Source: Gemmatimonadota bacterium (GTDB lineage: Bacteria > Gemmatimonadota > Gemmatimonadetes > Gemmatimonadales > Gemmatimonadaceae). From it: a stretch of DNA of 45,689 bases. The position numbers and the translations under genes were made by a program. Below the pieces are notes generated by a model. The model was not told the DNA's origin. It saw nothing but the letters and a program-made list of their open reading frames with translations, and searched no databases. Shown piece by piece: positions 8,156-38,943 of the stretch. Location: contig CANHJV010000010.1 of NCBI GenBank assembly GCA_947461225.1, forward strand, positions 1-45,689, read 5' to 3'. Every line of letters begins with the position of its first letter. The stretch's first letter is position 1.

Positions 8156-8439
8156 GAAGCGACCTCTTCACCGCCCGGCTCGACCGCCGCCGCAATCCGC
8201 TCACGGACTGGCACGACCCGGTAGATCGAGCCACCCACCAGCGCCTGCGTGGCCTCCACCGGCAACCCCCGGCTATCCGTGAGCTGTTGCCGTCCCGCAT
8301 CGATCTCCGTGGCGACGTCAGGGAAGAGCGCACGCACGGCGTCGACCGCGACCGACCCGTGCGGCACCGACACGCCACGTTCGTTCACATAGACCCGGAG
8401 CGAATCGGGGCCGGACGTCGGAGAGACAGCATCACTCAT
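8152..8439 (-). CDS. Small protein, possible beta-grasp (ubiquitin/ThiS-like) fold
   Basis: 95 aa; overlaps both neighbours by 4 bp (ATGA). 'LRVYVNERGVSVPHGSVAVDAVRALFP...LTDSRGLPVEATQALVGGSIYRVVPV' looks beta-grasp-like; the family assignment is inferential. Confidence 0.65.
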   Translation of the reverse strand: MSDAVSPTSGPDSLRVYVNERGVSVPHGSVAVDAVRALFPDVATEIDAGRQQLTDSRGLPVEATQALVGGSIYRVVPVRERIAAAVEPGGEEVAS

Positions 8440-11400
8440 TTTTGTGCTCCCGCGCCCACGGCGCGAATACGTTCGATCACGTCGCCGCGCACGGGCTGCG
8501 GCATCGCTTGCAGGTAGCTCGCCAGCATGTCCACATCACGGACAGGTAGCACGTCTACGGAAATCGTACGCGCCAGCATCGTACCTTCGGCATCGTCGAT
8601 CATGAAATCGTTCACGGCCAACGAGTAGATCCGGTCGGGATCGAGCGGCGCGCCGTTGGCGCCGAGCACGCGGACCACGCGCTGCCCTTGCGGCTTGGCC
8701 GGATCGAATTCGATCGTGAGACCACTCACGTGCGTATTCGGCCGGCCATTCCACACCCAGCGCTCGGCATTGGCCACGAGATCGCGGCCGCGCAGACGAA
8801 CACGGACGAGCACGTTACCGAAGGGCGAAATCTGATACACGCCGCCGAACGTGATCGGACCTGCCGGGACGTCCGTGCGGATACCACCGTTGTTCCAAGC
8901 GCCGAAGTCGGCATTGCCCTTCACCCGCGCCGCGTCGGCCACGATGTTGCCCAGCGGATACTGATCGCTGTTCCGCACGAAGGACGTGGCGATGGTCGCC
9001 ACCCGCCGATCGATGCGCACCTGCACTTTGGCTGTGGCCGCCGTGACGATGGAGTCGACCACCGGATCGGCCCCGGCGCGGGCTTCGCCGAACACGCTTC
9101 GCACCTCGGCCCGGGCCGGTCCGCCGTCCAGCGGGATATCGACCACGGCAATGGCGCGGCCGTTCGACGTCGTCTGCACCACGGGCATGTCGCGACGTCG
9201 CAGGGCCACGTTCCAGTGCGCATGGCCCATCACGAACAGGTCGGGCTTGTCGGTGAGCTTGTCGATGATGCTGATACCACCGCCGGTGCAGGCATCCGGC
9301 TTGTCGCGGTCGCAGCGCGCGCCATCATGCGCCAGCGCGATCACGACTTGTGCCCCGCCCGCGCGCAGCGCCCGCACGCGTTCGCTGATGATTGGCGCCG
9401 GATCGAGGAACTTGAGCTGCCGTACGTTACGCGCCTTCGTCGAGGTGGCCGTATGCTCGCCGGCCGTGCCGACAATGCCGATGCGCACGCCACCGCGTAC
9501 CACGACCGTATCGGCGCGCAACCACGGCAGCGGGCGACCATCAGCGCCACGGACGTTGGCGCCAAGGACCGCGTACCGGAGCTCCTGCAAGCGCATACGG
9601 AGCGTGTCCTGTCCGAAATCAAACTCGTGATTGCCGAGCGCACCGGCCGCTACGTGGAGCCGGTTGAATACCGCCACCGTGGGCTTACCCGCATCCCAGT
9701 CGGAGGCCGGCGCGCCGGAGAACAGGTCACCGGCATCGACCACCAGACTCTGGCACAGTCCGGTGCATTCGCGCTGCGCTTGCTCGATCGCCGCCGACAA
9801 CGCCACGGCACCGCCCTGTGAACGCCCACGATCATCCGGGCGGTTCGCCAGCGCGCCGTGAAAGTCACTCATGGTGATCACCCGCAACGTCCGGCCCGGT
9901 GGCGCGGCATCCGCCGGCGCAGCCGCGGGCGCAGCCGCGGGCGCGCCACCAGCCGCCTCACCCGCCCGCCCGCGATTCTGCTCGCGATACGCCATCGCCC
10001 GCGCTGCCGCTGGCTCCAGCCGCCAGTTCACCCTGGCGTACTTGGCCGGATCGAGCGTCCCCGCCTTGGCCACGTCGTCGATGATCAGCGAGCGGATGTC
10101 GATCTCTTTCTGGAATACGACCGGCGCAGTGGCCAGCATCGCGTAGCCGCCACCACCGCTCTGCCGATAGTTGTTGAGCGCCATGGTGAACGAGTCCCCA
10201 GGCTGCACGGCACGGCCGTTCCGTGTGAGCGTCGTGATGCGGGCACCGGCCGGCTTCGACACATCGATGACGTAATCCACCCCCGTCACCACGTCGAAGT
10301 TGTAGCCCGGAATCTTGGGGTCGACCAAACCGCCGGCCGGGGCCGAACCGTCTGGCGACAGCGTGCGGTAGTACAAGGCCGACTGTTCGAGAAACGCGCG
10401 TAACTGGGCGCCCGTAATGCGCACCGCGCGTAGCGTATTCTCGTACGGATACAGCTTAGAGAGCGACGCCTGCGTCACGGCCCCCGTGTCGAGCGTGGCG
10501 TCGAGGGAAAATGCGGCGGTGGCCGACAGCTCCGCCCCCGACGCGCGACGCATCACTTCGTTGATCAAATCGGTAACCGGGGCATCCACCACCCGGGAAC
10601 TGTCGGCACGCCACGTCACCGCGGTACGACCCACCGGCGTGGTCACCCACGTGACCGTGGCCTTGTGCGTCGACGCCGACGCCGCCAGCACGGCTGGCGA
10701 CTCCACGTGGCCGGCCACCCTCACCGACTGACCGCGGTGCTTCACCACCGCCCACTTCCCCTTCGACTTCTCAAGCGTCAACGTGGCCAGCGCCACCGAG
10801 GCCGCCCAGTTACGCGGCTGCACCAGCAAGGCACCATTGATCGTGGAGTCCACCAGCTCAGCGTGCGAATGGCCGTACACCACCAGGTTGATCCCGTCGA
10901 TCTCGCGGGGCACGCGGGCCGCCACATTCTCCGACGGCAGTCCCGTGGCCACCGTGTCATAGGTGGCCGCGCCATCGAGGCCCGAGTGCAGCAGCACGAC
11001 CACCACATCGGCTTTGCGCTTGCGTACCTCGCTCACCGCCCCGCGCACCGACGCCACGATATCGCTCACCGTGAGACCCGCCTCGCGCAGATTGTCGCGG
11101 TCCCACAGCATCGAGCCCGGCGTCGTGCCACCGATGACCGCGATGCGCACCCCCCGCCGGTCGATCAGCGTGTACGGCGCCACAAACGGGCGTCCTTGCG
11201 CATCACGCACGTTGGCGGCCAGGAACGGGAACGCCGCCTTGGAGATCGCCGCCCGCAGCGTCGGGACGCCAAAGTTGAACTCATGATTGCCGAGCACCGC
11301 CGCGTCGTAGTGCATCACGTTCATGGCGGCGATCATCGGGTGCACCGGCGGCGGTGTCACCTTGGCCGCCACATACAGCAGGGGATTGCCGGACAGGAGG

Positions 11401-11648
11401 TCGCCGCCATCCACCAGCAGCACCCGGCCGGGATTGACCGCGCGAACGGAATCCACGATCGTCGCCGCTCCCGCCAAGGAGCGGGCCGGGTCGGCGGCGT
11501 TGGCGTAGTAGTCCCACCCGCGCAGACGCCCATGAACGTCGGTGGTGGCGGCAATCACCAGATCGAACCGTCCCGACTGCGCAGGCAGAGGGGCAACCGC
11601 GGCCAGTGTCAACACAGCCGCGGTGAGTAGCGAAGGCAAGCGTCCCAT
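8436..11648 (-). CDS. Tandem-fused 5'-nucleotidase / 2',3'-cyclic phosphodiesterase (two metallophosphatase modules)
   Basis: 1070 aa with signal peptide. Two metallophosphoesterase cores: 'AATTDVHGRLRGWD...DGGDLLSGNP...GNHEFNFG' and 'ITMSDFHGALANRP...DAGDLFSGAP...GNHEFDFG', each followed by a 5'-nucleotidase C-domain, joined by an Ala/Pro linker. Confidence 0.93.
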   Translation of the reverse strand: MGRLPSLLTAAVLTLAAVAPLPAQSGRFDLVIAATTDVHGRLRGWDYYANAADPARSLAGAATIVDSVRAVNPGRVLLVDGGDLLSGNPLLYVAAKVTPPPVHPMIAAMNVMHYDAAVLGNHEFNFGVPTLRAAISKAAFPFLAANVRDAQGRPFVAPYTLIDRRGVRIAVIGGTTPGSMLWDRDNLREAGLTVSDIVASVRGAVSEVRKRKADVVVVLLHSGLDGAATYDTVATGLPSENVAARVPREIDGINLVVYGHSHAELVDSTINGALLVQPRNWAASVALATLTLEKSKGKWAVVKHRGQSVRVAGHVESPAVLAASASTHKATVTWVTTPVGRTAVTWRADSSRVVDAPVTDLINEVMRRASGAELSATAAFSLDATLDTGAVTQASLSKLYPYENTLRAVRITGAQLRAFLEQSALYYRTLSPDGSAPAGGLVDPKIPGYNFDVVTGVDYVIDVSKPAGARITTLTRNGRAVQPGDSFTMALNNYRQSGGGGYAMLATAPVVFQKEIDIRSLIIDDVAKAGTLDPAKYARVNWRLEPAAARAMAYREQNRGRAGEAAGGAPAAAPAAAPADAAPPGRTLRVITMSDFHGALANRPDDRGRSQGGAVALSAAIEQAQRECTGLCQSLVVDAGDLFSGAPASDWDAGKPTVAVFNRLHVAAGALGNHEFDFGQDTLRMRLQELRYAVLGANVRGADGRPLPWLRADTVVVRGGVRIGIVGTAGEHTATSTKARNVRQLKFLDPAPIISERVRALRAGGAQVVIALAHDGARCDRDKPDACTGGGISIIDKLTDKPDLFVMGHAHWNVALRRRDMPVVQTTSNGRAIAVVDIPLDGGPARAEVRSVFGEARAGADPVVDSIVTAATAKVQVRIDRRVATIATSFVRNSDQYPLGNIVADAARVKGNADFGAWNNGGIRTDVPAGPITFGGVYQISPFGNVLVRVRLRGRDLVANAERWVWNGRPNTHVSGLTIEFDPAKPQGQRVVRVLGANGAPLDPDRIYSLAVNDFMIDDAEGTMLARTISVDVLPVRDVDMLASYLQAMPQPVRGDVIERIRAVGAGAQK
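9919..9942. repeat. 12-bp tandem duplication (gcagccgcgggc x2) encoding the Ala/Pro interdomain linker
   Basis: Direct read of GCAGCCGCGGGC GCAGCCGCGGGC; encodes part of APAAAPAAAPADAAPP. Confidence 0.8.
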
Positions 11649-12503: not shown

Positions 12504-13220
12504 ATGCAAGCTGCGCCGTCCTCTGAACGCATCCTCGTCGTTGACGATGAGCCCGAGATTGTCGCGCTCGTCACCTATCATCTCGCGAAAGTCGGGTACC
12601 GCGTCGCGACGGCGGCTACCGGACAGGAAGCGCTCGATCTCGCCCGTCGTGAGCGACCCTCACTGATGGTGCTCGACCTCATGCTGCCTGGCATCTCCGG
12701 GTTCGATGTGCTCGAGCAGCTTCGGTCCGATGAGAGCACCCGCGACATCGCCGTCCTGATGCTCACCGCGCGCCGCGAAGAGCCCGATCGCATTCGCGGG
12801 CTCTCGCTGGGCGCCGACGATTACCTCACCAAGCCGTTCAGCCCGGCCGAACTCGTGCTGCGCGTCGGGGCCATCCTGCGCCGGACCGGCAACACCGCCC
12901 CCGTGAACGCCGACACGCTCGTGATCGGGCCCCTGCACATCGACCGCGCGGCCATGGCCGTGAAAGTCGAAGGACAGGAAGTCGATCTCACGCCCACCGA
13001 ATTCAAGCTGCTCCTCACGCTGGTGGAGCGGCGCGGCCGCGTGCAGGGTCGTGGGCTGTTGCTGGAAACGGTGTGGGATGCCGCCCCCGATATTCAGACG
13101 CGGACGGTCGACATGCACGTCCAGCGGCTGCGCACCAAACTCGGCGCCGCCGGTGACATGATCGAGACCGTGCGCGGCTTCGGCTACCGCTTCCGTGCGG
13201 CCATGCCGCGCGGCGCGTGA
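12504..13220 (+). CDS. phoB: PhoB-type two-component response regulator (OmpR family)
   Basis: Receiver 'ILVVDDEPEIVALVTYHL...LMVLDLMLPG...GADDYLTKPFSPAEL' plus winged-helix 'LTPTEFKLLLTLVERRGRV...DIQTRTVDMHVQRLRTKLG'. Adjacent to a PhoR-like kinase and the pst genes. Confidence 0.9.
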   Translation: MQAAPSSERILVVDDEPEIVALVTYHLAKVGYRVATAATGQEALDLARRERPSLMVLDLMLPGISGFDVLEQLRSDESTRDIAVLMLTARREEPDRIRGLSLGADDYLTKPFSPAELVLRVGAILRRTGNTAPVNADTLVIGPLHIDRAAMAVKVEGQEVDLTPTEFKLLLTLVERRGRVQGRGLLLETVWDAAPDIQTRTVDMHVQRLRTKLGAAGDMIETVRGFGYRFRAAMPRGA

Positions 13221-13257
13221 ACGCACCGCGACCGGCCGCCCCCGCTCAGCGCGCGTC

Positions 13258-14676
13258 ATGAGACTCGCGCAGCGCATCGTCGTGAACAGCTTCGTCGTCG
13301 CGACGCTCCTGGTCGGCATTGTGCTGTTCGCCGTGGAGCGGCGCGTCACCGAGCGCGTACGCGCCGAGGAGCCCACCGCGGCCGCGTCGGCCGATGAGTT
13401 TCTCGCCAAGGTCCGTCGCGACATCGTCATCGCCGGACTGGCCGCGCTGCTCGTCGGCGTGGCGTTGGCGCAGGTGCTCGCCGCGCCCGTCGCTCGTCCC
13501 ATCGAGGAACTGCGCGACGTGGCCCGCGGTCTGGCCGCCGGCGACCTCACGCAACGTCCGTCCCGCGCGATCGCGGGGGGCGAAGTCGGCGATCTGGCGG
13601 AAGCCCTTCGGCGCCTCGCCGAACAGCTCGAGGCCCGCCTACAGGCGTTGCAGGGCGAAGAGGCGCTCCTGGTCGCCCTCACCGAATCGCTCAACGAAGG
13701 GGTCATCGCCGTCGATGCGCGGCAACGGGTGGTGCGGATCAACGAGACCGCGCGACAGCTGCTTCGCCTGCGCGAGCCGGTGCCCTTCCCCGCCGACTTC
13801 CTGCCGCGCGACCGCACGCTGCGCGAAGCGCTGTCGGCCGTGCTCTCCGGCGCCGAAGCAGTCCCCGACGAAGTCCGCGTCGATGATCGCACGCTCTCGC
13901 TCACCGCGCGTCCGCTGCCAGACGGCGGCGCCGTCCTGGCCCTGTATGATCTCACGCCGGTCCGTCGCCTCGAAGCGGTCCGCCGTGATTTCGTGGCCAA
14001 CGTGTCGCACGAACTGCGCACGCCGCTGACCGTGATCGGCGGCTTCGTGGAGACGCTGCAGGACGAGGAGCTGCCCCCCGACCTGCGCCGTCAGTTCCTC
14101 GCGATGTGCGAGGGCAACGTCCATCGCATGCAGCGCATCGTGGACGATCTGCTCGACCTGTCGCGTATCGAATCGGGAGGATGGGTGCCCAACCCGACCG
14201 ATCTCGACGTGGCGTCGATCGCCGCCGAGGTCCTCGCCCCGCTGCAGACGGCGGCGACCACGAAGGGCGTGGCCCTCCGAACCGAGATCGGCGCCGGTGC
14301 CGACCACCTGTCCATCGACCCCACGGCCGCGCGACAGATTTTAAGCAACCTCGCCGAGAACGCCCTGCGCCACACCACCACCGGTGAGGTCGTGCTCTTC
14401 TCGCAGATCGATGACGGTGGGACGCGCATCGGCGTGCGTGACACCGGCTGCGGCATCGGCCCCGAACACCTGCCTCGGATCTTCGAGCGGTTTTACCGGG
14501 CCGACCCCGGTCGCTCGCGCGAAGCCGGCGGTACGGGGCTGGGGCTGGCCATCGTGCGCCATCTGGCCGAGTCCCACGGGGGCAAGGTCAAGGCCGAGTC
14601 GGAGCCCGGCGTCGGCACCACGATCTCGGCCTGGATCCCTGCCGACGACTCCGCGGAGAGCTACTCCGTAGGCTGA
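13258..14676 (+). CDS. phoR: PhoR-type sensor histidine kinase
   Basis: Start MRLAQRIVVNSFVV at 13258; HAMP-like region, PAS, 'FVANVSHELRTPLTVIGGFVETL', 'GCGIGPEHLPRIFERFYRADPGRSREAGGTGLGLAIVRHL'. Confidence 0.9.
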   Translation: MRLAQRIVVNSFVVATLLVGIVLFAVERRVTERVRAEEPTAAASADEFLAKVRRDIVIAGLAALLVGVALAQVLAAPVARPIEELRDVARGLAAGDLTQRPSRAIAGGEVGDLAEALRRLAEQLEARLQALQGEEALLVALTESLNEGVIAVDARQRVVRINETARQLLRLREPVPFPADFLPRDRTLREALSAVLSGAEAVPDEVRVDDRTLSLTARPLPDGGAVLALYDLTPVRRLEAVRRDFVANVSHELRTPLTVIGGFVETLQDEELPPDLRRQFLAMCEGNVHRMQRIVDDLLDLSRIESGGWVPNPTDLDVASIAAEVLAPLQTAATTKGVALRTEIGAGADHLSIDPTAARQILSNLAENALRHTTTGEVVLFSQIDDGGTRIGVRDTGCGIGPEHLPRIFERFYRADPGRSREAGGTGLGLAIVRHLAESHGGKVKAESEPGVGTTISAWIPADDSAESYSVG

Positions 14677-15678: not shown

Positions 15679-15707
15679 GTGACACAACCGTTGCACAACC
15701 GTGCGGA
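15679..15707 (+). promoter_or_regulatory. Candidate PHO box: GTGACAC-AACC-GTTGCAC-AACC-GTGCGGA
   Basis: Exact 9-bp direct repeat CACAACCGT at 15683-15691 and 15694-15702, 11-bp period; about 120 bp upstream of the TonB receptor start. Confidence 0.6.
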
Positions 15708-15827
15708 GATCGAAACCTGAGTCACGAAGCTTACCTGTCATCCGGAGCCCACGCGGTCCGGAATGCCTGGAACCACGAGCGCCCGAACGGGCGTCTCCGC
15801 AGTCTACATATACCGACCCGATCATCC

Positions 15828-18602
15828 ATGCGGACCTACGCACACGTGCTTTCCCGTTTCGCGCGTCATTTGACGCTGGCGATTGCGGCTGCCGTCGTCC
15901 CCGCTTCTGTCGTCGCTGCACAGGGAGCTGATGCCCCCGTCGGCCGGATCACCGGCCGCATCATCGATACCAAGTCCGGTCAAGGCATCGCCGCGGCCGG
16001 CGTGCAGATCGTCGGCACGACGATCGGTGCCCAGTCCGGCGTAGACGGTCGATACACCATCCTTCGCGTTCCGGCCGGCACCACCACGTTGCAGGTGCGC
16101 CGCATCGGATACGGACCGAAGACGGTGACCGGCATCGTCGTACCGGCCAACGGCGCGATCGAACTCGACATCTCGCTTAACTCGGCCGACGTGCAGTTGG
16201 CCGCGATCAGCGTAACGGCGACCAAGGAAAAGGGCACGGTCAACGAAGCGTTGAACCAGCAGAAGAACGCCACGAACGCCGTGAACGCGATCACCGCCGA
16301 GCAGATCGCCCGCAGCCCCGACGGCGATGCGGCGCAGGCCGCGCAGCGCGTGAGTGGTGTCACGGTGCAGGACGGCAAGTATCTGCAGGTACGCGGCCTG
16401 GGTGAGCGCTACACCACGGCGTCGTTGAACGGCGCGCGCATTCCGAGTCCGGAACCCGAGCGCAAGGTGGTGCCGCTCGACCTGTTCCCCGCCGGATTGC
16501 TGCAGGATGTCACGACGGTCAAGACGTTTACGCCCGACCAGCCGGGTGACTTCGCCGGTGCGAACGTGAACATCCGGACCAAGGAATTCCCGGCGTCGCG
16601 TCAGATCAACTACTCCACGAGCTTCGGCGCCAACAGCCGCGTGCTCGGCCAGATGATGCCGTTCGCCCCGCGCGCGGGCGGTGAGTTGATCGGCTTTGCC
16701 GGTGCTGCTCGCACCCGGCCATCCGCCATCGCGTCCGCCAACTTCCTCGGCAACGTCACCCAGTCGGACTACAACCAGATGGCGCTTCAGCAGCGCAACG
16801 TCTGGAATGCCGCGCCGCGCAACGGTGGCATGAACGGCTCCTTCGGTGCGTCGACGGGTGGCAACACGATTCTCGGACGACGCATCGGGTATGTCCTAAG
16901 CGGCAACTACGGCTACTCCGAAGAGACCCGCGCCAACGAGCGCTTCGCCGTCGGCAATCAGGGTGCGAACAATACGGTGGTGCCCTTGACCTCCGTATCC
17001 GGTACGACCGGTCGCTCCAGCATTCAGTGGGGCGGCATCGCGAACTTCTCGAAGTTGATCGGCAAGAGCTCGCGTGTCTCGCTCAACACGACCGCCACGC
17101 GCAGTGCGGACAACGAAGCGCGTACGGATCGTGGCTTTGACGAAAACCTGTCGGACAGCATTGCCCGCACGACCCTACGCTATGTGGAGCGTGGCGTTGC
17201 CACGGTGACCGGACAGGGTGAGCATCAGCTTGGCGACCGCAACAAGACGGCGTGGTCCGCCACGTACGCCAGCACCAGCCGCCGTGAACCGGATCGTTCG
17301 GACGTCGTGTACTCGCGTGGTAGCGACGGTAAGTTCTCGCTGCTCGCGTCCCTCGATGGCGCCCGCCGACTGTATTTCGATCTCGAAGAGAAGAACAACA
17401 CCGCGCAGGTTGATCACACGATCAACGTGGGCAACATCGCGAATCAGAATGTCCTCAAGGTTGGTGCCTACTTTCGCACCACCAACCGCTCAGCGGCGGC
17501 TCCGATCTACTCGTTCATCTCGCGGGCGCCGGAAGCGCTGCGCACGCAGTCGGCCGACGTGATCTTCGGCGCGACGCAGGCCTGTGCCTCGTGCAGCCAG
17601 ATCAACGTGCAGCCGATCGGCCAGGCTGGCTCGTACACGGCGGAGGACCGCACGGCGGCTGGCTATGTGATGACGGATTGGGGAATCGGCGAGCGCGTGC
17701 GTGTCATCGCCGGCGCCCGTCTCGAACAGGCCAAGATCAACGTGGCCTCCAGCACGCAGGGTGGCTTCACCGCCAGCGCCATGCTCAACAACACCGACGT
17801 GTTGCCCTCGCTGCTCGTGAACACGAAGCTGACCGAGAACCAGAACCTCCGGTTCGGCATCACGCGCACCCTGGCCCGCCCGGAATATCGCGAGCTGGCC
17901 CCGGTCACCTTCCGCGACGTGCTCGGCGGCGTCAGCGTCACGGGTAACGACAAGCTCAAGCGCTCGCTGATCGACAACGTCGACCTGCGCTACGAAGCCT
18001 TCCCGAACTCGGGCGAAGTGCTGAGCATCGGCGTGTTCGCCAAGCAGTTCGACCGCCCCATCGAGCGTGTGGAATCGGCCACGTCCGGCGCCTACCAGGC
18101 GCGCTTCCAGAACGCCCTGAAGGCTGTCAACCTCGGGGTCGAGCTCGAAGCGCGGAAACAGCTTGGCTTCCTCGGCGCGTGGGCGATGCCGTTCACGGGC
18201 TTCAGCAACGTGACGATCATGCGCTCCTCGGTCGACCTGGATACTACCACCGGTCTCACCGTCACCGACAAGTCGCGTCGCCTCGTCGGCCAGGCGCCGT
18301 TCGTGGTGAACGCCGGCCTCTCCTATTCGTCGGAGAGCGGCCGGACGAACGCCACGCTCCTGTACAACGTCGTGGGCGATCGTATCTATGCCGCCGGCGT
18401 CACGCCGCTCCCGAACATCGTCGAGAAGTCGCGCAAGGTCGTTGACCTCTCCCTGCGCTTCCCGGTGGCCGGCAGCTTGTCGGGCCGCGTCGATGCACGG
18501 AATCTGCTTGACGCACGCTATCAGTTCATGCAGGGCAACCTCGAGCGTGAAGGCTACAACGCGGGCCGCACGTTCTCCGTCGGATTGTCATGGCGCCAGT
18601 AA
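15828..18602 (+). CDS. TonB-dependent receptor with N-terminal carboxypeptidase-regulatory-like domain
   Basis: Start MRTYAHVLSRFARHLTLAIAAAVVPASVVAAQG; 'GRITGRIIDTKSGQGIAAAGVQIVGT', plug 'RVSGVTVQDGKYLQVRGLGERYTTASLNGARIPSPEPERKVVPLDLFPAGLLQ', 'PGDFAGANVNIRTKEFP', C-terminal aromatic 'FSVGLSWRQ'. Confidence 0.93.
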   Translation: MRTYAHVLSRFARHLTLAIAAAVVPASVVAAQGADAPVGRITGRIIDTKSGQGIAAAGVQIVGTTIGAQSGVDGRYTILRVPAGTTTLQVRRIGYGPKTVTGIVVPANGAIELDISLNSADVQLAAISVTATKEKGTVNEALNQQKNATNAVNAITAEQIARSPDGDAAQAAQRVSGVTVQDGKYLQVRGLGERYTTASLNGARIPSPEPERKVVPLDLFPAGLLQDVTTVKTFTPDQPGDFAGANVNIRTKEFPASRQINYSTSFGANSRVLGQMMPFAPRAGGELIGFAGAARTRPSAIASANFLGNVTQSDYNQMALQQRNVWNAAPRNGGMNGSFGASTGGNTILGRRIGYVLSGNYGYSEETRANERFAVGNQGANNTVVPLTSVSGTTGRSSIQWGGIANFSKLIGKSSRVSLNTTATRSADNEARTDRGFDENLSDSIARTTLRYVERGVATVTGQGEHQLGDRNKTAWSATYASTSRREPDRSDVVYSRGSDGKFSLLASLDGARRLYFDLEEKNNTAQVDHTINVGNIANQNVLKVGAYFRTTNRSAAAPIYSFISRAPEALRTQSADVIFGATQACASCSQINVQPIGQAGSYTAEDRTAAGYVMTDWGIGERVRVIAGARLEQAKINVASSTQGGFTASAMLNNTDVLPSLLVNTKLTENQNLRFGITRTLARPEYRELAPVTFRDVLGGVSVTGNDKLKRSLIDNVDLRYEAFPNSGEVLSIGVFAKQFDRPIERVESATSGAYQARFQNALKAVNLGVELEARKQLGFLGAWAMPFTGFSNVTIMRSSVDLDTTTGLTVTDKSRRLVGQAPFVVNAGLSYSSESGRTNATLLYNVVGDRIYAAGVTPLPNIVEKSRKVVDLSLRFPVAGSLSGRVDARNLLDARYQFMQGNLEREGYNAGRTFSVGLSWRQ

Positions 18603-18608
18603 CGCGAA

Positions 18609-18642
18609 CCGTGCGGGCGGGTCCACGGACGGGCCCGCACGG
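18609..18642 (+). terminator. Hairpin downstream of the TonB receptor
   Basis: CCGTGCGGGC ... GCCCGCACGG perfect 10-bp arms just after the stop at 18602; no strong T-tract. Confidence 0.6.
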
Positions 18643-18679
18643 CGCAGACAGTTGAGAAACAGCCACATGACCCGGCACG

Positions 18680-18708
18680 GTGACACAACCGTGACCGGGT
18701 CATGACGT
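18680..18708 (+). promoter_or_regulatory. Candidate PHO box: GTGACAC-AACC-GTGACCG-GGTC-ATGACGT
   Basis: Three heptamers at exact 11-bp spacing sharing TGAC, about 80 bp upstream of the 18790 lipoprotein; overlaps inverted repeat 18666-18704. Confidence 0.6.
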
Positions 18709-18789
18709 ATCCGGCACAGAGTATCGCGTTACTTCCTTTCGTAACAACGCCCGCCCTCCACGCTCCACCTACTACACCCAGGACTTCTG

Positions 18790-20538
18790 ATGACGACGTT
18801 CACGCGTTTGCGCGCCATCGCCATGACGTCATTTAGCCTGCTCGCGCTCGCCGCGTGCGGCAGTGATGATCCCACCGCACCTGTGACTCCCGCGACGGGA
18901 ACGCTCGCGATTACCGTGTCCGGCCTGCCCGCGGGCGTGAATGCCGCGGTCACGGTGACGGGCCCGAGCTCGTACTCGCAGTCACCGACCGCCTCGACGA
19001 CCTACAGCGTCGCCCCGGGCACCTACACGGTGGCGGCCTCGCAGGTCACGAGCAACAACGTGCGCTACAACGCCGCCGTCACGGGCTCGCCCGCAACGGT
19101 CACGTCGAATGCCACGGCCACGGCCACGGTGACGTATTCAATCACCGCCAACCCGACCGTGACGCTTAGCGGTTCGATCGCCGCCAGCCGCACGCTGACG
19201 CCGGACACGAACTACGTGCTTCGTGGTTTCGTCTACGTGAACAGCGGCGCGACACTGACCATCAACGCCGGCACCAAGATCGTCGGTGACACCACCGCCC
19301 TCGGCTCCGCCCTGTTCGTGCTTCGCGGCGCGCGCATCGTGGCCAATGGTACGGAAGCGGCTCCGGTGGTGTTTACGTCGCAGCGCAGCGTCGGCAACCG
19401 CTCCCCGGGTGACTGGGGCGGGTTGATTGTCGTCGGCAACGCGCGCAACAATCGCGCGGGTAACATCATCGTCGAAGGCTCCGACGGCTCGGTCGTCGGT
19501 GGCAACTCGGCCGGCGTTGTGTACACCGGTGGTACGAACGACGCCGACAACAGCGGCACGCTGCGCTATGTGCGCGTGGAATTCGCCGGATACGCGACCC
19601 TTACCGACGCGGAGCTGAACTCGTTCACGTTCGCGGCGCTCGGCAGCGGCACCACGCTGGAATATCTGCAGTCGGTGACGGGTCTCGACGACTCGTTCGA
19701 ATGGTTCGGTGGCACGGTGGACGGCAAGTACCTGGTGTCGTACGAAGCCGGTGACGACCATTTCGACACGTCGGAAGGATACCGCGGCCGCAATCAGTTC
19801 TTGATCGCCTACCAGTCGGCGTTCGCGACGCCGCGTGCCGGCGCCGGTGCCGTCTCGACCGACCCGCAGGGCTTCGAAGTGGACGGTTGCAATGGCGGTG
19901 GCTGCACCGCCCCGGCCGGCGGTAACGCACAGAGCTCGGGTGCCGCTGACGGACTGTGGACGATGAACGTGTTCGCGAACTTTACCGTGATCGGCGTCGG
20001 CGCCGGTGTCACGACGCCGACCAACGGCGGCGTGGGCATGGTGCTCCGTCGTGGTACGGGCGGCTACTACGTGAATGGCGTCGTGGCGCGTTGGCCGCGC
20101 CAGGCGATCTCGATCCGCGACACGACGTCGAACAATCGCTTCCAGGTGGATTCCCTGATCGTGCGCAACCTGTACTTCGCAGACAACGGTTCGCAGAACA
20201 GCGGCGTGACCTTCGACCCGACCGGCACGAACTTCGGCCAGGAAGCGGCGTTTACGGCGCGGAACAGCAACGTCACGCTCGCCGCAGGCACCGTGACGGC
20301 GGCAAGCCTCTTCACCGCGCTTCCGGCTGGCGGTACGACGGCCCCGACGGTGGCCGGCTTCGACTGGTCACCGGCCACCGGTTCGCCGATCGCCACGGGT
20401 GGCCTCAGCGCCTTCACCGCTGATCCGAAGATCGCGGCGCGCGCCGGCACCTTCATCACGGCGACCGCGTACCGCGGCGCCGCCGCTCCGGGTGGCACGA
20501 AGTGGTGGGCGAACTGGACCAACTACGCCCGCAACTAA
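18790..20538 (+). CDS. Lipoprotein with predicted right-handed beta-helix-like region, partner of the TonB receptor
   Basis: Lipobox 'LLALAACGSDD'; repeats such as 'LTPDTNYVLRGFVYVNSGATLTINAGTKIVGD...FVLRGARIVANGTEAAPVVFTS...GDWGGLIVVGNA'. Confidence 0.85.
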   Translation: MTTFTRLRAIAMTSFSLLALAACGSDDPTAPVTPATGTLAITVSGLPAGVNAAVTVTGPSSYSQSPTASTTYSVAPGTYTVAASQVTSNNVRYNAAVTGSPATVTSNATATATVTYSITANPTVTLSGSIAASRTLTPDTNYVLRGFVYVNSGATLTINAGTKIVGDTTALGSALFVLRGARIVANGTEAAPVVFTSQRSVGNRSPGDWGGLIVVGNARNNRAGNIIVEGSDGSVVGGNSAGVVYTGGTNDADNSGTLRYVRVEFAGYATLTDAELNSFTFAALGSGTTLEYLQSVTGLDDSFEWFGGTVDGKYLVSYEAGDDHFDTSEGYRGRNQFLIAYQSAFATPRAGAGAVSTDPQGFEVDGCNGGGCTAPAGGNAQSSGAADGLWTMNVFANFTVIGVGAGVTTPTNGGVGMVLRRGTGGYYVNGVVARWPRQAISIRDTTSNNRFQVDSLIVRNLYFADNGSQNSGVTFDPTGTNFGQEAAFTARNSNVTLAAGTVTAASLFTALPAGGTTAPTVAGFDWSPATGSPIATGGLSAFTADPKIAARAGTFITATAYRGAAAPGGTKWWANWTNYARN

Positions 20539-20582
20539 ACCCGGCGGCTAACGCACTCACGCGCTAGCTTCTTTGAAGTCCG

Positions 20583-20614
20583 AACGGCCGGTGCCCCCTC
20601 GGGCACCGGCCGTT
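20583..20614 (+). terminator. Strong hairpin between the beta-helix lipoprotein and the pstS-linked lipoprotein
   Basis: AACGGCCGGTGCCC-cctc-GGGCACCGGCCGTT, 14-bp perfect stem, 4-nt loop, followed by ctccc. Confidence 0.75.
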
Positions 20615-20630
20615 CTCCCATATCGACGCC

Positions 20631-21260
20631 ATGTCTCTACACACTACGTCGCGATCGCTACTCAGCGCGTTCCTCCTGCTGGCCTGCACGGAAAAGCCGG
20701 CGCCCTCGCCCGCGGACGAACAGGCAAAACATGTCGCCGAAGTGGTTGCTGCCGGCGGCGTCGTCGATTCGATTTTGCCGATTGCCGAACATCTTCGGCG
20801 ATTCCGTACCGAACTCCCCAAGACGGATTCGCTGCAGCACGCGAGTACCTCCCGAGAAGCGCTCGTCTCGCGTTGGGCCGCGGCCATCGCCGCGAACGAC
20901 ACCGCCGACCTCAACGCGATGATCATGAATCGCGCCGAGTTCGCGTGGCTGTACTACGAAGCCAGCCCAATGAGCAAGCCGCCCTACGAGGCGCCTCCGG
21001 AACTCCTCTGGGGGCAACTGCTCGCGTCATCGAACAAAGGCGCAACACAGCTGGTGAATCGGTTCGGAGGAAGTCGCGTGAAGGCGAGCGGCCTGCGCTG
21101 CCCGACACCACCGGATACGCAAGGCACCAACGTGCTCACCAGTAAATGCGAGGTTCGGCTCGCCGCGCCTGGCAAGCAAACCGTTGAGGGCGTCCTCTTC
21201 GGTACCATCATCGAACGCGGCGGACGATTCAAGTTCGTCGGTCTCTCCACCAATCTCTGA
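20631..21260 (+). CDS. Unknown lipoprotein coupled to pstS
   Basis: 209 aa, 'LLSAFLLLACTEKP' lipobox; stop TGA overlaps the pstS ATG (TGATG at 21258-21262). Confidence 0.8.
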   Translation: MSLHTTSRSLLSAFLLLACTEKPAPSPADEQAKHVAEVVAAGGVVDSILPIAEHLRRFRTELPKTDSLQHASTSREALVSRWAAAIAANDTADLNAMIMNRAEFAWLYYEASPMSKPPYEAPPELLWGQLLASSNKGATQLVNRFGGSRVKASGLRCPTPPDTQGTNVLTSKCEVRLAAPGKQTVEGVLFGTIIERGGRFKFVGLSTNL

Positions 21261-22378
21261 TGACGCGTCTCGCGTTCCTCCTGGTGCCCCTGCTCCTTAT
21301 CGGCGGATGCACGGCGTCTCCGAAGGATAGCGTACCGGGCAACGAGTCCACGGCCGCCCTCGCGCCGAGTGGGACCCGCGTCGATCTCACCGGCGCCGGG
21401 GCCACCTTCCCGTATCCGCTCTACTCGCGCTGGTTCAACGAGTACGCGATCCGCACCAACGTGCGCATCAACTACCAGTCGATCGGCTCGGGCGGCGGCA
21501 TCCGCCAAGTGGTCGCGCGCACCGTCGACTTCGGCGCCACCGACGTGCCGATGACCGACGAAGAACTCGCCAGCGCGGGCATGCCGGTGCTGCACATCCC
21601 CACGGTGATCGGCGCCGTCGCCATCACGTACAACCTGCCCGGACTCGCGCGACCGCTCAATCTCAGCCCCGACGTGATCGCCGACATCTTCCTCGGCACG
21701 ATCACCCGCTGGAGCGACCCGCGTATCACGGTGCTCAATCCCAAGCTCACGCTGCCCGCCACCGACATCCTCGTGGTGCATCGCGCCGACGGCAGCGGCA
21801 CGTCCTACATCTTCAGCGACTTCCTGACCAGCGTGAGCCCCGCTTGGGCTGCCGGTCCCGGGCGTGGCAAGGACGTGCGCTGGCCGGTCGGCATCGGTGG
21901 CAAGGGTAACGAAGGCGTGGCCGGTCAGGTGAAACAGATGCCGGGCGCCGTCGGCTATCTCGAGGTCGTGTACGCGCGACAGAATCGCTTGCCCGTCGTG
22001 CACGTGCGGAACGCCGCCGGCCGCTTCATTTCGCCCATGCCCTTCGAAATTGCCTCGGCGGCCACGGCGATGCTCGAGTCGGACCGCAAGCTCAACGCCT
22101 CCGACACCCTCGGCACGCCAGACCTCCGCGTGTCGCTCGTGAACGCGCCTGGTGCCCAGTCGTACCCGATCGCCTCATTTACCTGGATGCTCATCGCGCC
22201 GTCAGCCATCGGCCCTGAGAAGAGCCGTCAATTGGCCGCGTTCGTGCGCTGGGCCCTGCTCGAGACCCCCGACGTGGCCAGTACGCTCGGCTATGTCCCC
22301 CTCCCCTCGGAAGCGGCCACCCGCATCGTCGACCGGCTCGATGCGGCGCTCGCCGCGGAACGACAGCGCGTGCCGTGA
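21260..22378 (+). CDS. pstS: Phosphate ABC transporter substrate-binding protein PstS (lipoprotein)
   Basis: Lipobox 'LLIGGCTAS'; 'LTGAGATFPYPLYSRWFNEY', 'INYQSIGSGGGIRQV', 'TDVPMTDEEL', 'VVHRADGSGTSYIFSDFL'. Confidence 0.96.
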   Translation: MTRLAFLLVPLLLIGGCTASPKDSVPGNESTAALAPSGTRVDLTGAGATFPYPLYSRWFNEYAIRTNVRINYQSIGSGGGIRQVVARTVDFGATDVPMTDEELASAGMPVLHIPTVIGAVAITYNLPGLARPLNLSPDVIADIFLGTITRWSDPRITVLNPKLTLPATDILVVHRADGSGTSYIFSDFLTSVSPAWAAGPGRGKDVRWPVGIGGKGNEGVAGQVKQMPGAVGYLEVVYARQNRLPVVHVRNAAGRFISPMPFEIASAATAMLESDRKLNASDTLGTPDLRVSLVNAPGAQSYPIASFTWMLIAPSAIGPEKSRQLAAFVRWALLETPDVASTLGYVPLPSEAATRIVDRLDAALAAERQRVP

Positions 22379-22392
22379 CAGAGCCGTTACAC
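22375..22392 (+). promoter_or_regulatory. Candidate PHO box: GTGACAG-AGCC-GTTACAC
   Basis: 7-4-7 direct repeat with 11-bp period overlapping the pstS stop, about 43 bp before pstC. Confidence 0.55.
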
Positions 22393-22434: not shown

Positions 22435-23361
22435 ATGCAGACCCCGCTCGGTGACCGGCTCTATCGCACGGTCACGACGGTGTGCGCCGCCGCGATCCCC
22501 CTCGTGCTCGTGCTGCTCACCGCCGTGGTCCTGCGCGCGGCGTGGCCGGCGCTCTCGCTCCACGCCGCCGATCTCGCCTTCGGCACCACGTGGGACGTGC
22601 CCCGAGCTCGATTCGGCGCCTTCCCGGCCATCGCGGGCACGTTGCTGTCGTCGCTGATCGCCCTGTGCCTCGCCACCCCGCTCGCCCTAGGCGTCGCCAT
22701 CTTCACCGTCGACATCGGACCACGACGTCTGCATGAGCCGGTGGCCTTTCTCGTCAACTTGCTCGCGGCGATTCCCTCGGTGGTGTACGGGCTCTGGGGA
22801 GTGTTCGTCCTCGTGCCGCTGCTGCGCAGCGCGATCATGCCGGCCCTCGTTCCCCTCGGTACGTTCCTGCCGCTCTTCCGGGGACCGGCCTATGGCCCAA
22901 GCTTGATCGCGGCCAGCCTCGTGCTCGCCATCATGATCCTGCCGTACATCGCCAGCGTCAGCCGCGAGGTCCTGCTGGCCGTTCCGCAAGCGCAGCGTGA
23001 GGCCGCCCTCGCCCTCGGCGCCACCCGCTGGGAGGTCGTGCGTGATGCCGTGCTCCCAGCGGCCCGCTCCGGGCTGATCGGTGGCGTCATGTTGGGCCTC
23101 GGCCGGGCCCTCGGTGAGACGCTGGCGGTCACGATGGTGATCGGTAACCGCCATGCGGTGCCCGATTCGCTGTTCGATCCGGCGTATACGATGGCGTCGC
23201 TGCTGGCCAATGAATTCGCCGAAGCGTCGAGCGACGCCCATCTCTCCGCACTGATGGCCGTGGCCGCGCTGCTCCTCTTGGTCACGCTGCTCATCAATCT
23301 GCTCGCTCGTTGGCTCGTACGGCGTGTCGCGACGGGCCTGCCCGGTGGGCGCTCGTCATGA
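22435..23361 (+). CDS. pstC: Phosphate ABC transporter permease PstC
   Basis: 'AIPSVVYGLWGVFVLVPLLR', 'REAALALGATRWEVVRDAVLPAARSGLIGGVMLGLGRALGETLAVTMVIGN'. Confidence 0.95.
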   Translation: MQTPLGDRLYRTVTTVCAAAIPLVLVLLTAVVLRAAWPALSLHAADLAFGTTWDVPRARFGAFPAIAGTLLSSLIALCLATPLALGVAIFTVDIGPRRLHEPVAFLVNLLAAIPSVVYGLWGVFVLVPLLRSAIMPALVPLGTFLPLFRGPAYGPSLIAASLVLAIMILPYIASVSREVLLAVPQAQREAALALGATRWEVVRDAVLPAARSGLIGGVMLGLGRALGETLAVTMVIGNRHAVPDSLFDPAYTMASLLANEFAEASSDAHLSALMAVAALLLLVTLLINLLARWLVRRVATGLPGGRSS

Positions 23362-24239
23362 ATGCACGCGCTCAACAGCGTCGCCGTACCGGACGACTCA
23401 TGACGGCGCTGACGTGGACAGCCGCCATCATCGCGATCATCCCGCTCGTCACGATTCTTGCGCATCTGCTCGTGAACGGGCTCGAACAACTCACCCCGAC
23501 CTTCTTCACGCAGCTGCCCGCTCCGCCCGGCGTGCGGGGTGGGGGTGTGGCCAACGCGATCATCGGGTCGGGCATCCTCGTGGCGATCGCCATGACGGTG
23601 GCGGTACCCGTGGGCATCGGTGCCGGCCTTTATCTCGCGGAGCATCGCCGCGGTCGCTTCGCACGGGTGGTGCGCTTGCTCGCCGATGTACTGAGTGGCC
23701 TGCCCTCGATCGTGCTCGGCATCTTCGCGTGGGAATTGATCGTCCGACCGTCGGGGCATTTTTCGGCGTGGGCGGGCGGCATCGCACTCGGACTCCTCGT
23801 GTTGCCGCTGGTCGCGCGGGCCACGGAAGAGATGGTGCGTCTCGTACCGGTCGCGCTCACGGAAGCCGCGTTGGCCCTTGGCTTCTCGCGCTGGCGCACG
23901 TCGCTCACCGTCGTGCTGCGTACCGCCATGCCCGGCATCGTGACCGCCGTGCTGCTCGCGATGTCCCGCGCGGCGGGCGAAACCGCGCCGCTGCTCTTCA
24001 CGGCCTTCGGCAACCCGTTCTGGTCGATCGATCCGGCGCGCCCGATCGCCGCGTTGCCGCTCCAGATCTACGCCTATGCGCAGAGTCCCTACGACGAATG
24101 GCGCGCCCAGGCTTGGGCGGGCGGCCTCGTGTTACTCATGCTCGTGGCGTTGATCAGTGCGGCTGGCTACGCCGTCATTCGTTCGCGCGCCAGGCTCCTC
24201 TCCGCCGTCACCCCTCGCGTGGGACGGGTTGATGACTGA
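23358..24239 (+). CDS. pstA: Phosphate ABC transporter permease PstA
   Basis: ATGA overlap with pstC; 'LSGLPSIVLGIFAWELIV', 'TEAALALGFSRWRTSLTVVLRTAMPGIVTAVLLAMSRAAGETAPLLFTAFGN'. Confidence 0.95.
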   Translation: MNARAQQRRRTGRLMTALTWTAAIIAIIPLVTILAHLLVNGLEQLTPTFFTQLPAPPGVRGGGVANAIIGSGILVAIAMTVAVPVGIGAGLYLAEHRRGRFARVVRLLADVLSGLPSIVLGIFAWELIVRPSGHFSAWAGGIALGLLVLPLVARATEEMVRLVPVALTEAALALGFSRWRTSLTVVLRTAMPGIVTAVLLAMSRAAGETAPLLFTAFGNPFWSIDPARPIAALPLQIYAYAQSPYDEWRAQAWAGGLVLLMLVALISAAGYAVIRSRARLLSAVTPRVGRVDD

Positions 24240-25020
24240 GCGAACGCCGGCGGGCGTCACCGCACCTCCCGTGCGGCTCAGCAATCTGTCTGCCGGCTTC
24301 GCCGATCGCGGCGTGCTGCGTCAGGTCAACCTCGATGGTCCACCCGGCCGTGTACTGGCCATCGTGGGTCCCTCGGGGTGCGGCAAGAGCACCGTGCTGC
24401 GGTGCATCAATCGCCTGCACGAACTCGATGAGGGCGCCTTCGTGAGCGGCGACGTGTCCGTCGGTGCGCTGCCGGTGTATTCATCCACGACCGACGTGAT
24501 CGCCCTGCGTCGTCGGGTCGGCATGGTATTTCAGCGACCCACACCGTTCGTCACTGCCTCGGTGTTCGATAACGTCGCGGCCGGTGTGCGTGCGCACCGG
24601 CGGTTCATTGCCGCCAGCGAACTGGAAGGACTCGTCGAAGACGCGCTGCAGCGCGCTGGCTTGTGGCGCGAAGTCGTCGATCGACTCTTCGGCACGGCGA
24701 TGGCGCTTTCTGGCGGTCAGCAGCAGCGGCTCTGCATTGCGAGAGCGCTGGCGGTGCAACCCGACGTGCTGTTGCTCGACGAGCCCACGGCGTCGCTCGA
24801 CCCGATGGGCACTCAGCGCATCGAAGAGCTGCTGTACGATCTGCGTGACACCGTCACGGTGATCATGGTCACCCACAACATGCAGCAGGCCGCGCGCATC
24901 TCCGACGTTACGGCGTTTCTGCTCAATGGGCGCATCGTGGAGTCCGCCCCCACACGGCAACTCTTCACGACACCGTCCGATGCGCGCACCGAAGCGTACA
25001 TCACGGGGCGTTTCGGATGA
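24232..25020 (+). CDS. pstB: Phosphate ABC transporter ATP-binding protein PstB (copy 1)
   Basis: Start MTERTPAGVTAP; Walker A 'GPSGCGKST', signature 'LSGGQQQRLCIARAL', 'LLLDEPTASLDPMGT'. Confidence 0.93.
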   Translation: MTERTPAGVTAPPVRLSNLSAGFADRGVLRQVNLDGPPGRVLAIVGPSGCGKSTVLRCINRLHELDEGAFVSGDVSVGALPVYSSTTDVIALRRRVGMVFQRPTPFVTASVFDNVAAGVRAHRRFIAASELEGLVEDALQRAGLWREVVDRLFGTAMALSGGQQQRLCIARALAVQPDVLLLDEPTASLDPMGTQRIEELLYDLRDTVTVIMVTHNMQQAARISDVTAFLLNGRIVESAPTRQLFTTPSDARTEAYITGRFG

Positions 25021-25793
25021 GCACAGACCTCGACGGGCTCCCCGGTGCCGTCATTCTCGAACGGTTTTCCGCGTGGTTCGGCGCGGCGCCGGCGCTGCAC
25101 AACGTCGACTTCGCCGTGCGTCCGCGTTCGGTCACCGCGCTCATCGGCCCATCGGGGTCGGGCAAGAGCACACTGCTGCGTGCCATCAATCGCCTCAACG
25201 ATGAATTGCCGGGAGCGCGCCACAGCGGCCGGCTGCTTCTCGACGGCGACAACGTGTACGAGCCGACGGTCGACGTGAGCGTGCTGCGGCAGCGGGTCGG
25301 CATGGTGTTCCAGCGATCCAATCCATTTCCACGATCCGTGTTCGACAACGTGGCGTATGGGCCGCGCCTCAATGTGGGCCTTACCGGTCGCGCGCTCGAC
25401 GACGTAGTCGAGGATGCTCTCCGACGCGCCGCTCTCTGGGACGAAGTCAAGGATCGACTGCACCAGCGTGCATGGTCGCTCTCCGGCGGCCAGCAGCAGC
25501 GACTCTGCATCGCGCGCGCGCTCGCCAACCGTCCGGACGTGCTGCTGCTCGACGAGCCGACCAGCGCGCTTGATCCGCAGGGCACCCAGCGTATTGAAGA
25601 ACTGCTGTACGATCTTCAGCAGGACCTGACCATCATCATCGTGACCCACAACCTGCATCAGGCAGCGCGCGTGTCGCGACGCACCGCGTTGCTGGTGGAC
25701 GGCGTCCTTGTCGAGGACGCGGCTACCGATCGTTTGTTCACGCGCCCGTCCGATTCTCGGACCGAAGCGTTCATCACGGGGAGGTTCGGCTGA
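25017..25793 (+). CDS. pstB: Phosphate ABC transporter ATP-binding protein PstB (copy 2)
   Basis: ATGA overlap with copy 1; 'GPSGSGKSTLLRAINRLND', 'LSGGQQQRLCIARALANRPDVLLLDEPTSALDPQGT'. Confidence 0.93.
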   Translation: MSTDLDGLPGAVILERFSAWFGAAPALHNVDFAVRPRSVTALIGPSGSGKSTLLRAINRLNDELPGARHSGRLLLDGDNVYEPTVDVSVLRQRVGMVFQRSNPFPRSVFDNVAYGPRLNVGLTGRALDDVVEDALRRAALWDEVKDRLHQRAWSLSGGQQQRLCIARALANRPDVLLLDEPTSALDPQGTQRIEELLYDLQQDLTIIIVTHNLHQAARVSRRTALLVDGVLVEDAATDRLFTRPSDSRTEAFITGRFG

Positions 25794-26506
25794 TGCGTAG
25801 TGTCCCCGCCGGCTATCGGCACTTTCACGACGACCTCGCGCTCCTCAAGCAGCGGCTGCTCGACATGTCCGAACGCGCCGAGTCCTTGGTGGCGCTCTCG
25901 GTTGAAGCACTGCTCGAGCGCGACCGCGAGAAGGCGATCGCGGTGATCGAGGCCGACGAGGAGCTCGACCGGCTCGAGGTCGAGGCCGAGAATCAGGCCA
26001 TCGCGATGCTGGCCCTGCAGCAACCGATGGCCCGTGATCTTCGCTTCCTGATCGGCGCCATCAAGGTCTCGAGCGACCTCGAGCGTGTCGGCGATCACGC
26101 CGTAAACATCGCGCAATGTGCGGTGCGGTTGGTCGATCAGCGCACCCCAGTGCCGGCGGTCCCCGCCTTGGCGGACATGGCGCGCCGGGCGCGCGCCATG
26201 CTGAGCGACGCCCTCGACGCCTTCATCCGCGGCGACGGCGCCCTGGGTCGTGCCGTGGGTAAGGCGGATGACGATGTCGACGCCAAGCATGAGAGCATCT
26301 TTCGCGCACTCTTGGCCGACATGATGGGCGACCCGCAGGCCATCGCCCCATCGCTCGAACTATTGCTGGTTAGCCGAAACCTGGAGCGGGTCGCCGACCT
26401 CGCCACCAACATCGGGGAAGACGCCGTGTATCTTGCGGAGGGGAAGCAGATTCGTCATCGGTTCGACGAGGACGCCCCATCGCCTTCTTCCAGCGACGCC
26501 ACATGA
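25793..26506 (+). CDS. phoU: Phosphate transport regulator PhoU
   Basis: 'YRHFHDDLALLKQRLLDMSERAESLVALSVEALLERD', 'QQPMARDLRFLIGAIKVSSDLERVGDHAVNIA', 'SRNLERVADLATNIGEDAVYLAEG'. Confidence 0.95.
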   Translation: MRSVPAGYRHFHDDLALLKQRLLDMSERAESLVALSVEALLERDREKAIAVIEADEELDRLEVEAENQAIAMLALQQPMARDLRFLIGAIKVSSDLERVGDHAVNIAQCAVRLVDQRTPVPAVPALADMARRARAMLSDALDAFIRGDGALGRAVGKADDDVDAKHESIFRALLADMMGDPQAIAPSLELLLVSRNLERVADLATNIGEDAVYLAEGKQIRHRFDEDAPSPSSSDAT

Positions 26507-31393: not shown

Positions 31394-31400
31394 AGATCCG

Positions 31401-32012: not shown

Positions 32013-32063
32013 GGCTCGGGCTGTCTGAGAGAGGTTCACGTGCGCTCGGGGCGACCGTGCGTA

Positions 32064-32081
32064 CGGTAACGATTGCGTCAC
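32064..32081 (-). promoter_or_regulatory. Candidate PHO box: GTGACGC-AATC-GTTACCG (minus strand)
   Basis: 7-4-7 direct repeat, 11-bp period, about 50 bp upstream of the DUF47 start, oriented toward DUF47-pit-ppk. Confidence 0.55.
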
Positions 32082-32424
32082 CGCTGCCGGAACGCCACGT
32101 GCAACGTCCATCGTTACACGAAGTTGACGCACTGCGCCGGAACCGAACAGTTCACCGCCAAACGACTTTCGGCGCGCCAGCTTGGGGTTCTCGAACCCGC
32201 GTGCGAGCCGCGTGCCATGAGCGCGCCCACCACGAAGCCAACGCGCGCCAAATTGGCAGACTGCCGCCAAGACAGCTCCCCAGCCGCCGCGTACCGCCAG
32301 AATTGCGCCGGTCCGGCAGACGCACCGCGGCCCATCCCTTGCCCTCTCTGTTCACAGCAGTGAAGCAGGTCGCACATGGACACGATGAAGTCCCTACAGA
32401 CGGCAACTCCTCAACGAGACCTCA

Positions 32425-38769: not shown

Positions 38770-38943
38770 TGGATCGACCTCACTTCGATGAAAGTTGTCA
38801 CATGCCCACGCGTCCCGTCCCGATACATCGAACAAAACGCTAGGAATATCGGTCTAAGCCACCCCTTTTTGTGCCCAAACACCGATTTCATCCCCGGGAG
38901 CGTTGGCAAATCCCTCAACCCTGAGACAGCTTACAGCGGTCAC

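Follow-up and report, generated by a model that had tools for sequence, protein, structure and literature searches.

A TonB-dependent receptor and beta-helix lipoprotein between phoBR and pstS in Gemmatimonadota: a probable ElpS/FII-type module for phosphorus acquisition at the outer membrane

The window, i.e. the whole analysed stretch of 45,689 nucleotides from a Gemmatimonadota bacterium, carries between phoB-phoR and pst a TonB-dependent receptor and a beta-helix lipoprotein, followed by a small lipoprotein of 209 residues and by PstS. This module is probably a PhoB-controlled outer-membrane phosphorus-acquisition system of the ElpS/FII type, in which TonB-driven capture would be followed by PstS in the periplasm and then by Pst or Pit, the substrate being Pi or an organophosphate. 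A role in outer-membrane phosphorus uptake had been suggested in the first-pass annotation of the window, and it is supported as plausible. The two reading frames placed there between phoBR and pst were both recovered (15828–18602 and 18790–20538); their description as a two-gene module is right in that the pair is real, and incomplete in that the next gene (20631–21260) and the tie to pstS were missed. The features of the locus are listed below in window coordinates.

12504–13220, plus strand: phoB response regulator gene (TIGR02154 PhoB, E 2.8e-71, under the equivalog cut-off)
13195–14676, plus strand: phoR sensor kinase gene (HAMP, HisKA, HATPase_c; PnpS/PhoR models)
15679–15711, plus strand: PHO-box-like repeat 5' of the receptor gene, GTGACACAACC GTTGCACAACC GTGCGGAGATC
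15828–18602, plus strand: gene for the TonB-dependent receptor, 924 aa (CarboxypepD_reg and Plug)
18609–18642, plus strand: hairpin 3' of the receptor gene, predicted by folding; terminator-like, no clear U tract
18680–18706, plus strand: PHO-box-like triple repeat 5' of the lipoprotein gene, GTGACACAACC GTGACCGGGTC ATGAC
18790–20538, plus strand: gene for the predicted Ig-like and right-handed beta-helix lipoprotein of the ElpS/FII family, 582 aa
20582–20615, plus strand: strong hairpin in the gap between the lipoprotein gene and the 209-aa gene, GAACGGCCGGTGCCC-CCTC-GGGCACCGGCCGTTC
20631–21260, plus strand: 209-aa lipoprotein gene, the third conserved gene of the module
21260–22378, plus strand: pstS, lipobox-bearing phosphate-binding protein (TIGR00975, 352 bits, cut-off 205)
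22374–22391, plus strand: PHO-box-like repeat CGTGACAGAGCCGTTACA, 43 nt 5' of pstC
22435–25793, plus strand: pstC, pstA and two consecutive pstB-like ATPase genes (pstC TIGR02138, 303 bits; ABC_tran twice)
25793–26506, plus strand: phoU (PF01895)
30356–32270, minus strand: Pit-type phosphate transporter (PHO4) and its DUF47/PhoU_div partner, beyond ppk (PF01384, 310 bits; PF01865, 75 bits)

The gene order is nearly constant within the genus: udk-phoB-phoR-(sir2 reversed)-receptor-lipoprotein-209 aa-pstS-(pstC-pstA-pstB-pstB-phoU)-gppA-ppk, with phoB next to udk and phoR in nearly all the relatives. The 209-aa gene and pstS overlap, stop with start. Hairpins similar in strength to that at 20582–20615 are found at the same place in most relatives of the genus, with varying sequence. 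The two pstB-like ATPase genes (24157–25793) are arranged in tandem, which is kept in the relatives with a pst operon. Elsewhere in the window, a 1070-aa protein with a metallophosphoesterase domain and two stretches of 5'-nucleotidase C-terminal domain is encoded on the minus strand near udk-phoB (8436–11648), and a second TonB-dependent receptor (38903–42037) is adjoined by an unrelated-looking gene for 420 aa (42045–43307) without a Pfam match.

The receptor comprises a CarboxypepD_reg N-terminus and a Plug domain by Pfam. Among the NCBIfam models it gives a full-length match to TIGR01782, under the cut-off of that model; at E ≤ 0.001 this and a weak siderophore-receptor model are the only matches, and the SusC/RagA model is not matched, in agreement with the first view of the protein as having a CarboxypepD_reg-like N-terminus and not being SusC-like. 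The label "FecA/TonB-type" was kept for the TonB-dependent part and rejected for the FecA part, as no STN signalling domain is reported in the receptor by Pfam. The highest-scoring paralogue in the rest of the genome reaches 103 bits over 258 residues, and the module receptors of other phyla score ~420–440 bits.

The lipobox of the beta-helix lipoprotein (Cys23) is 93% conserved. Sequence searches of Pfam, NCBIfam and PDB gave no match for the protein, and the SusD-type domains (PF07980, PF14322) were found by Pfam neither in it nor in its homologues. The claim that the partner is not SusD thus holds, and the SusCD label for the pair was rejected, on account of both the missing SusC/RagA match of the receptor and the missing SusD match of the lipoprotein. 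The homologues carry fn3 or Big_2 (Ig-like) domains at the N-terminus. The AlphaFold (AF2) model (pLDDT 87, pTM 0.83) has a beta domain at residues ~37–119 and, behind it, a long body of beta strands; the Foldseek neighbours of this body are proteins with a right-handed beta-helix (GH28 enzymes, pectate lyases, tailspikes), with TM-scores of ~0.1–0.3 and no match with E ≤ 0.001. As modelled, the lipoprotein consists of an Ig-like domain and a right-handed beta-helix, as had been proposed from its 582-residue sequence. The members from other phyla share 28–36% identity with it over the beta-helix core and have the invariant residues in common. Giant versions (~1360 aa) are encoded on Alteromonas and Pseudoalteromonas megaplasmids (L077, L070), with their own ExbB/ExbD/TonB genes nearby, and a long open frame at G000:C147:4945-6984 (L002-L008) contains several segments similar to the Ig-like N-terminus of the lipoprotein.

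Acidic residues predominate among the invariant positions of the lipoprotein (E275, D300, D301, E304, D322, D326, E363; also R420), so a bound metal would be needed to hold phosphate, and a metal-assisted site formed by the acidic residues and R420 can be guessed at. No histidine is conserved at ≥ 60%, and for this reason no GH28-like acid/His/Arg/Lys site is apparent. Identity as a GH28-like enzyme was considered and set aside: the fold class agrees, but there is no significant match and no conserved histidine. These observations bear on an alternative in which the module serves to scavenge polymer-bound organic phosphorus. The lipoprotein would then be a glycan-binding or glycan-cleaving protein of the polygalacturonase/lyase type and would release or capture phosphorylated oligosaccharides, to be imported by the receptor for periplasmic phosphatases. 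The Foldseek neighbours and the nearby 1070-aa tandem 5'-nucleotidase favour this reading, and scavenging of polymer-bound organic phosphorus was proposed by the authors of the Flavobacterium study (PMC8115612), but the low TM-scores without a significant match, the missing conserved histidine and GH28-like site, a cassette with neither a CAZyme nor a dedicated phosphatase, and the constant association with PstS, a Pi binder, make it unlikely.

According to the first-pass annotation the pair matched no characterised system. This has to be corrected, as the same pair has been published as CC0171-ElpS (PMC2996285) and as Fjoh_0545-0546 FII (PMC8115612), both known but mechanistically open. By homology and synteny the lipoprotein belongs to the ElpS/FII family, the link to ElpS and Fjoh_0546 themselves being drawn through the synteny of related loci. 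ElpS of Caulobacter crescentus is surface-exposed, made under Pi starvation and encoded beside the TonB receptor CC0171, and the ElpS-CC0171-T2SS arrangement was described for Caulobacter and Sphingomonas (PMC2996285). The likeness to the window lies in the lipoprotein adjoining a TonB-dependent receptor. The Sphingomonas and Indioceanicola members, which were found with the window protein, show the order lipoprotein-receptor-gspC/N-gspD and hence the Caulobacter arrangement. Unlike in the window, the locus in Caulobacter lies beside a type II secretion system instead of phoBR/pst, cells shed ElpS, and neither a 209-aa gene nor pstS is reported there.

Overexpression of elpS raised the extracellular phosphatase activity, deletion of elpS left phosphatase activity unchanged, and the purified ElpS protein lacked phosphatase activity; for CC0171 constitutive expression was reported, and intracellular Pi was not seen to change (PMC2996285). 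It was proposed that ElpS activates phosphatases, and the window lipoprotein might likewise be a surface or secreted activator of phosphatases, with PstS in genomes without PstCAB serving PhoR signalling and not transport. The overexpression result and the retention of phoR beside the module agree with such a role, which we consider improbable, given that it leaves the nearly constant receptor partner unexplained and that the elpS deletion had no phosphatase phenotype.

The Flavobacterium johnsoniae pair Fjoh_0545-0546 (TBDT and lipoprotein FII, PUSIV), located in the phoBR operon, is increased by ~8–10 log2 units upon Pi depletion and is not induced by N or Fe limitation (PMC8115612). Here also receptor and lipoprotein adjoin phoBR. 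In Flavobacterium potami the order (GT28, Porin_O_P, PhoR, PhoB, receptor, lipoprotein) is identical to that published for Fjoh_0541-0546, the protein at the locus equivalent to Fjoh_0546 is contained in our lipoprotein alignment, and the genome encodes three lipoprotein homologues, as expected for FI/FII/FIII. The differences are that the Flavobacterium lipoproteins have ~400 aa (582 aa in the window), that the published plant-associated strains are without PstSABC, and that the cassette has neither the 209-aa partner nor pstS. With PusCD/SusCD the module shares a presumably Pi-regulated TonB-dependent receptor with a CarboxypepD_reg N-terminus and a putative surface lipoprotein; it differs in both protein families, as described above. 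No literature on the Gemmatimonas or Alteromonas versions of the module was found.

The promoters of the receptor and lipoprotein genes contain conserved PHO-box-like sequences, defined here as direct repeats with an 11-bp period and a TGAC/TGTCA core; period and TGAC core agree with the E. coli PHO box on the other strand (reverse complement). The repeat starting at 15679 reads GTGACACAACC-GTTGCACAACC-GTGCGG and that starting at 18680 reads GTGACACAACC-GTGACCGGGTC-ATGAC; for both, position and orientation are conserved in the relatives, so that the proposal of a separate candidate PHO box for each gene is sustained. The two-unit pattern precedes the receptor gene in 19/19 genus loci and in 30/66 other loci of the phylum (background 0.3–0.4%), and the lipoprotein gene in 16/18 and 16/29 (background ≤ 0.1%). 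In 25 of 27 relatives the lipoprotein repeat reaches a score of 12 or more out of 15, compared with 2.6% of shuffles; these scores measure conservation and not PhoB binding, and the sites are candidate PHO boxes. A repeat is located 5' of pstC in 4/11 genus and 5/25 other phylum loci, and 5' of pstS in 9/25 loci of other genera. The two-unit pattern was not found 5' of phoR, phoU, pstB, gppA, udk or the 209-aa gene in the genus and phylum loci, and the box 5' of sir2 is the receptor's own box seen from the opposite side. The receptor box is one of four genome-wide matches to CGTGACAN4CGTTGCA (≤ 1 mismatch). GTGACN5CGTGAC has 11 matches in the genome, of which the one at the lipoprotein gene is alone in lying clearly 5' of a gene start, the rest being in ORFs or in a tandem repeat. 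Transcription of pstS solely from the lipoprotein promoter was considered and is weakened, because boxes also precede pstC and, in other genera, pstS itself.

The lipoprotein family is present in 121 of 300 Gemmatimonadota genomes. The neighbourhood survey proposed at the outset gave linkage to pho genes in this phylum, where 42 of the 47 informative loci (fetched loci of at least 15 kb) contain a strong match to phoB, phoR, pstS, pstC, pstA or phoU, a raw count, to be read against a pho locus of a few tens of kb in a 3–5 Mb genome. The receptor was detected in 59/60 phylum loci. The placement of the module varies between genera (5' or 3' of phoB, in either orientation), and the pho association is therefore unlikely to be one frozen arrangement. 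In a scan of named genomes, 80 lipoprotein loci were found, from Bacteroidota, Poribacteria, Acidobacteria, Gammaproteobacteria and others, and the receptor directly adjoins the lipoprotein on the same strand in 73/84 loci (mostly of other phyla, plasmid loci included). In most sampled Flavobacteriaceae loci the pair is adjoined by phoB-phoR. The refuting condition named in the first-pass annotation, homologues without pho linkage, was largely not borne out in Gemmatimonadota and Flavobacteriaceae. In Alteromonas macleodii the order is phoB-phoR-phosphate-binding protein (pstS-like)-2OG oxygenase-lipoprotein-receptor-DUF3450-ExbB. The expected linkage failed in the sampled Bacteroidales and Poribacteria loci, which have no local pho genes, and a phosphorus role cannot on that account be assumed for the family as a whole.

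The loci of these two groups, in which related receptors adjoin the lipoprotein away from pho genes, would also fit a pair that imports a non-phosphorus need of Pi starvation, such as a metal cofactor for phosphatases, its pho location reflecting co-regulation only. PhoX-type phosphatases need Ca and Fe, and the conserved acidic residues suggest metal binding. Such a cofactor role is nevertheless decidedly unlikely in view of the induction of Fjoh_0545-0546 by limitation of Pi and not of Fe (PMC8115612) and of the tie to pstS, which is retained even in genomes without PstC.

With respect to this tie, the window PstS is a TIGR00975 equivalog, as in PstSCAB-PhoU systems, and differs from these in its wider setting, 11 relatives pairing PstS with the receptor module without a recognisable PstC. 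The gene directly behind pstS is gppA in about half of the genus loci. In whole-genome searches of the 20 module genomes, PstS (TIGR00975) is over the cut-off in 20/20 and PstC (TIGR02138) in 9/20; control genomes for PstC gave matches in 14/14, 12 of them over the cut-off. The 11 module genomes with PstS and no PstC over the cut-off are G016, G005, G001, G004, G160, G063, G118, G210, G112, G013 and G012, among which G160 is a single contig rated 100% complete, G063 has 7 contigs (100%), and G016, G005, G001 and G004 are rated at 99%. In G028, G018, G009 and G032 the sole pstC lies elsewhere in the genome, in G028, G018 and G032 beside a second, divergent PstS. The PstC-less genomes largely preserve the ligand-loop motifs of PstS, apart from some substitutions. 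In G160, G063, G118 and G210 an N-terminal hydrophobic segment replaces the PstS lipobox; such an anchor is seen in the pstS of L162, L180, L176 and L187, in one genus. A PHO4 (Pit) transporter is present in 9/9 tested genomes, mostly within ~12 kb of the module. That PstS follows the module, and that 11 module genomes have PstS without a recognisable PstC, is new here. A further, tentative proposal, which we regard as possible but somewhat doubtful, is that the receptor, the two lipoproteins (beta-helix and 209-aa) and PstS together constitute a self-sufficient high-affinity phosphate-capture system of the envelope, which in several Gemmatimonadota replaces the Pst ABC transporter: import driven by TonB would charge a periplasmic or membrane-anchored PstS working without PstCAB, and the low-affinity Pit would complete the uptake.

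The conserved third gene, also new here, adjoins the lipoprotein gene in genus and family loci, even where the module lies away from pho (L058, L060). It was detected in 40/60 phylum loci, and relatives occupy the equivalent place in one Chloroherpetonaceae and one Poribacteria locus. The protein is lipoprotein-like (AF2 pLDDT 88), with no significant fold match and nothing significant in PDB and Pfam searches. The flanks of L065 are 86–97% identical to the window (phoB 97%, pstS 91%), whereas its receptor, lipoprotein and 209-aa gene have 53, 42 and 30% identity. In L061 the module is nearest to that of L195, from another genus (73, 75 and 65%, respectively), while for phoB, pstS and sir2 the nearest match is a congener. 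From these mismatches between module and flanks the three genes seem to move as a unit, and xenologous replacement of one cassette appears to have occurred in L065 and L061, an exchange that is new here.

The evidence counted for the PhoB-controlled phosphorus-acquisition system comprises the pho linkage, the steady pairing of receptor and lipoprotein, the repeats, the Pi induction in Flavobacterium, the making of ElpS under Pi starvation, the PstS and PstC counts, the kept PstS ligand motifs, the PHO4 transporters and the Alteromonas macleodii locus. Counted against it are the null results for ElpS, the constitutive CC0171, the pho-less Bacteroidales and Poribacteria members, and the acidic nature of the invariant residues. 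In this system, phosphorylated PhoB would at low Pi bind the 11-bp repeats 5' of the receptor gene, the lipoprotein gene and, in the window genome, pstC. The lipoprotein, for which a location on the cell surface is suggested by homology to ElpS, would capture phosphorus (as Pi, as a metal-Pi complex or in a phosphorylated polymer) and, presumably in complex with its cognate receptor, either pass it on or aid the release of Pi beside the receptor. TonB would then power inward transport to the periplasm, the 209-aa lipoprotein possibly being an obligate accessory. PstS would bind Pi and deliver it to PstCAB; in relatives without PstCAB, PstS may maintain a periplasmic supply of Pi for the linked PHO4 (Pit) symporter, to which the Pi would be handed over.

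The passage of phosphate through the outer membrane during starvation is usually ascribed to porins; a PhoB-controlled TonB system, if true, would imply that bacteria invest energy in obtaining phosphorus at this membrane. ElpS and FII are the two published representatives of the family. The Gemmatimonadota version offers clean handles, namely a defined cassette of three genes, promoter boxes that are conserved, and naturally occurring genomes with PstS but no recognisable PstC, and these make Pi versus organophosphate, and transport versus phosphatase activation, directly testable. The genomes with PstS and without PstC are the most interesting lead.
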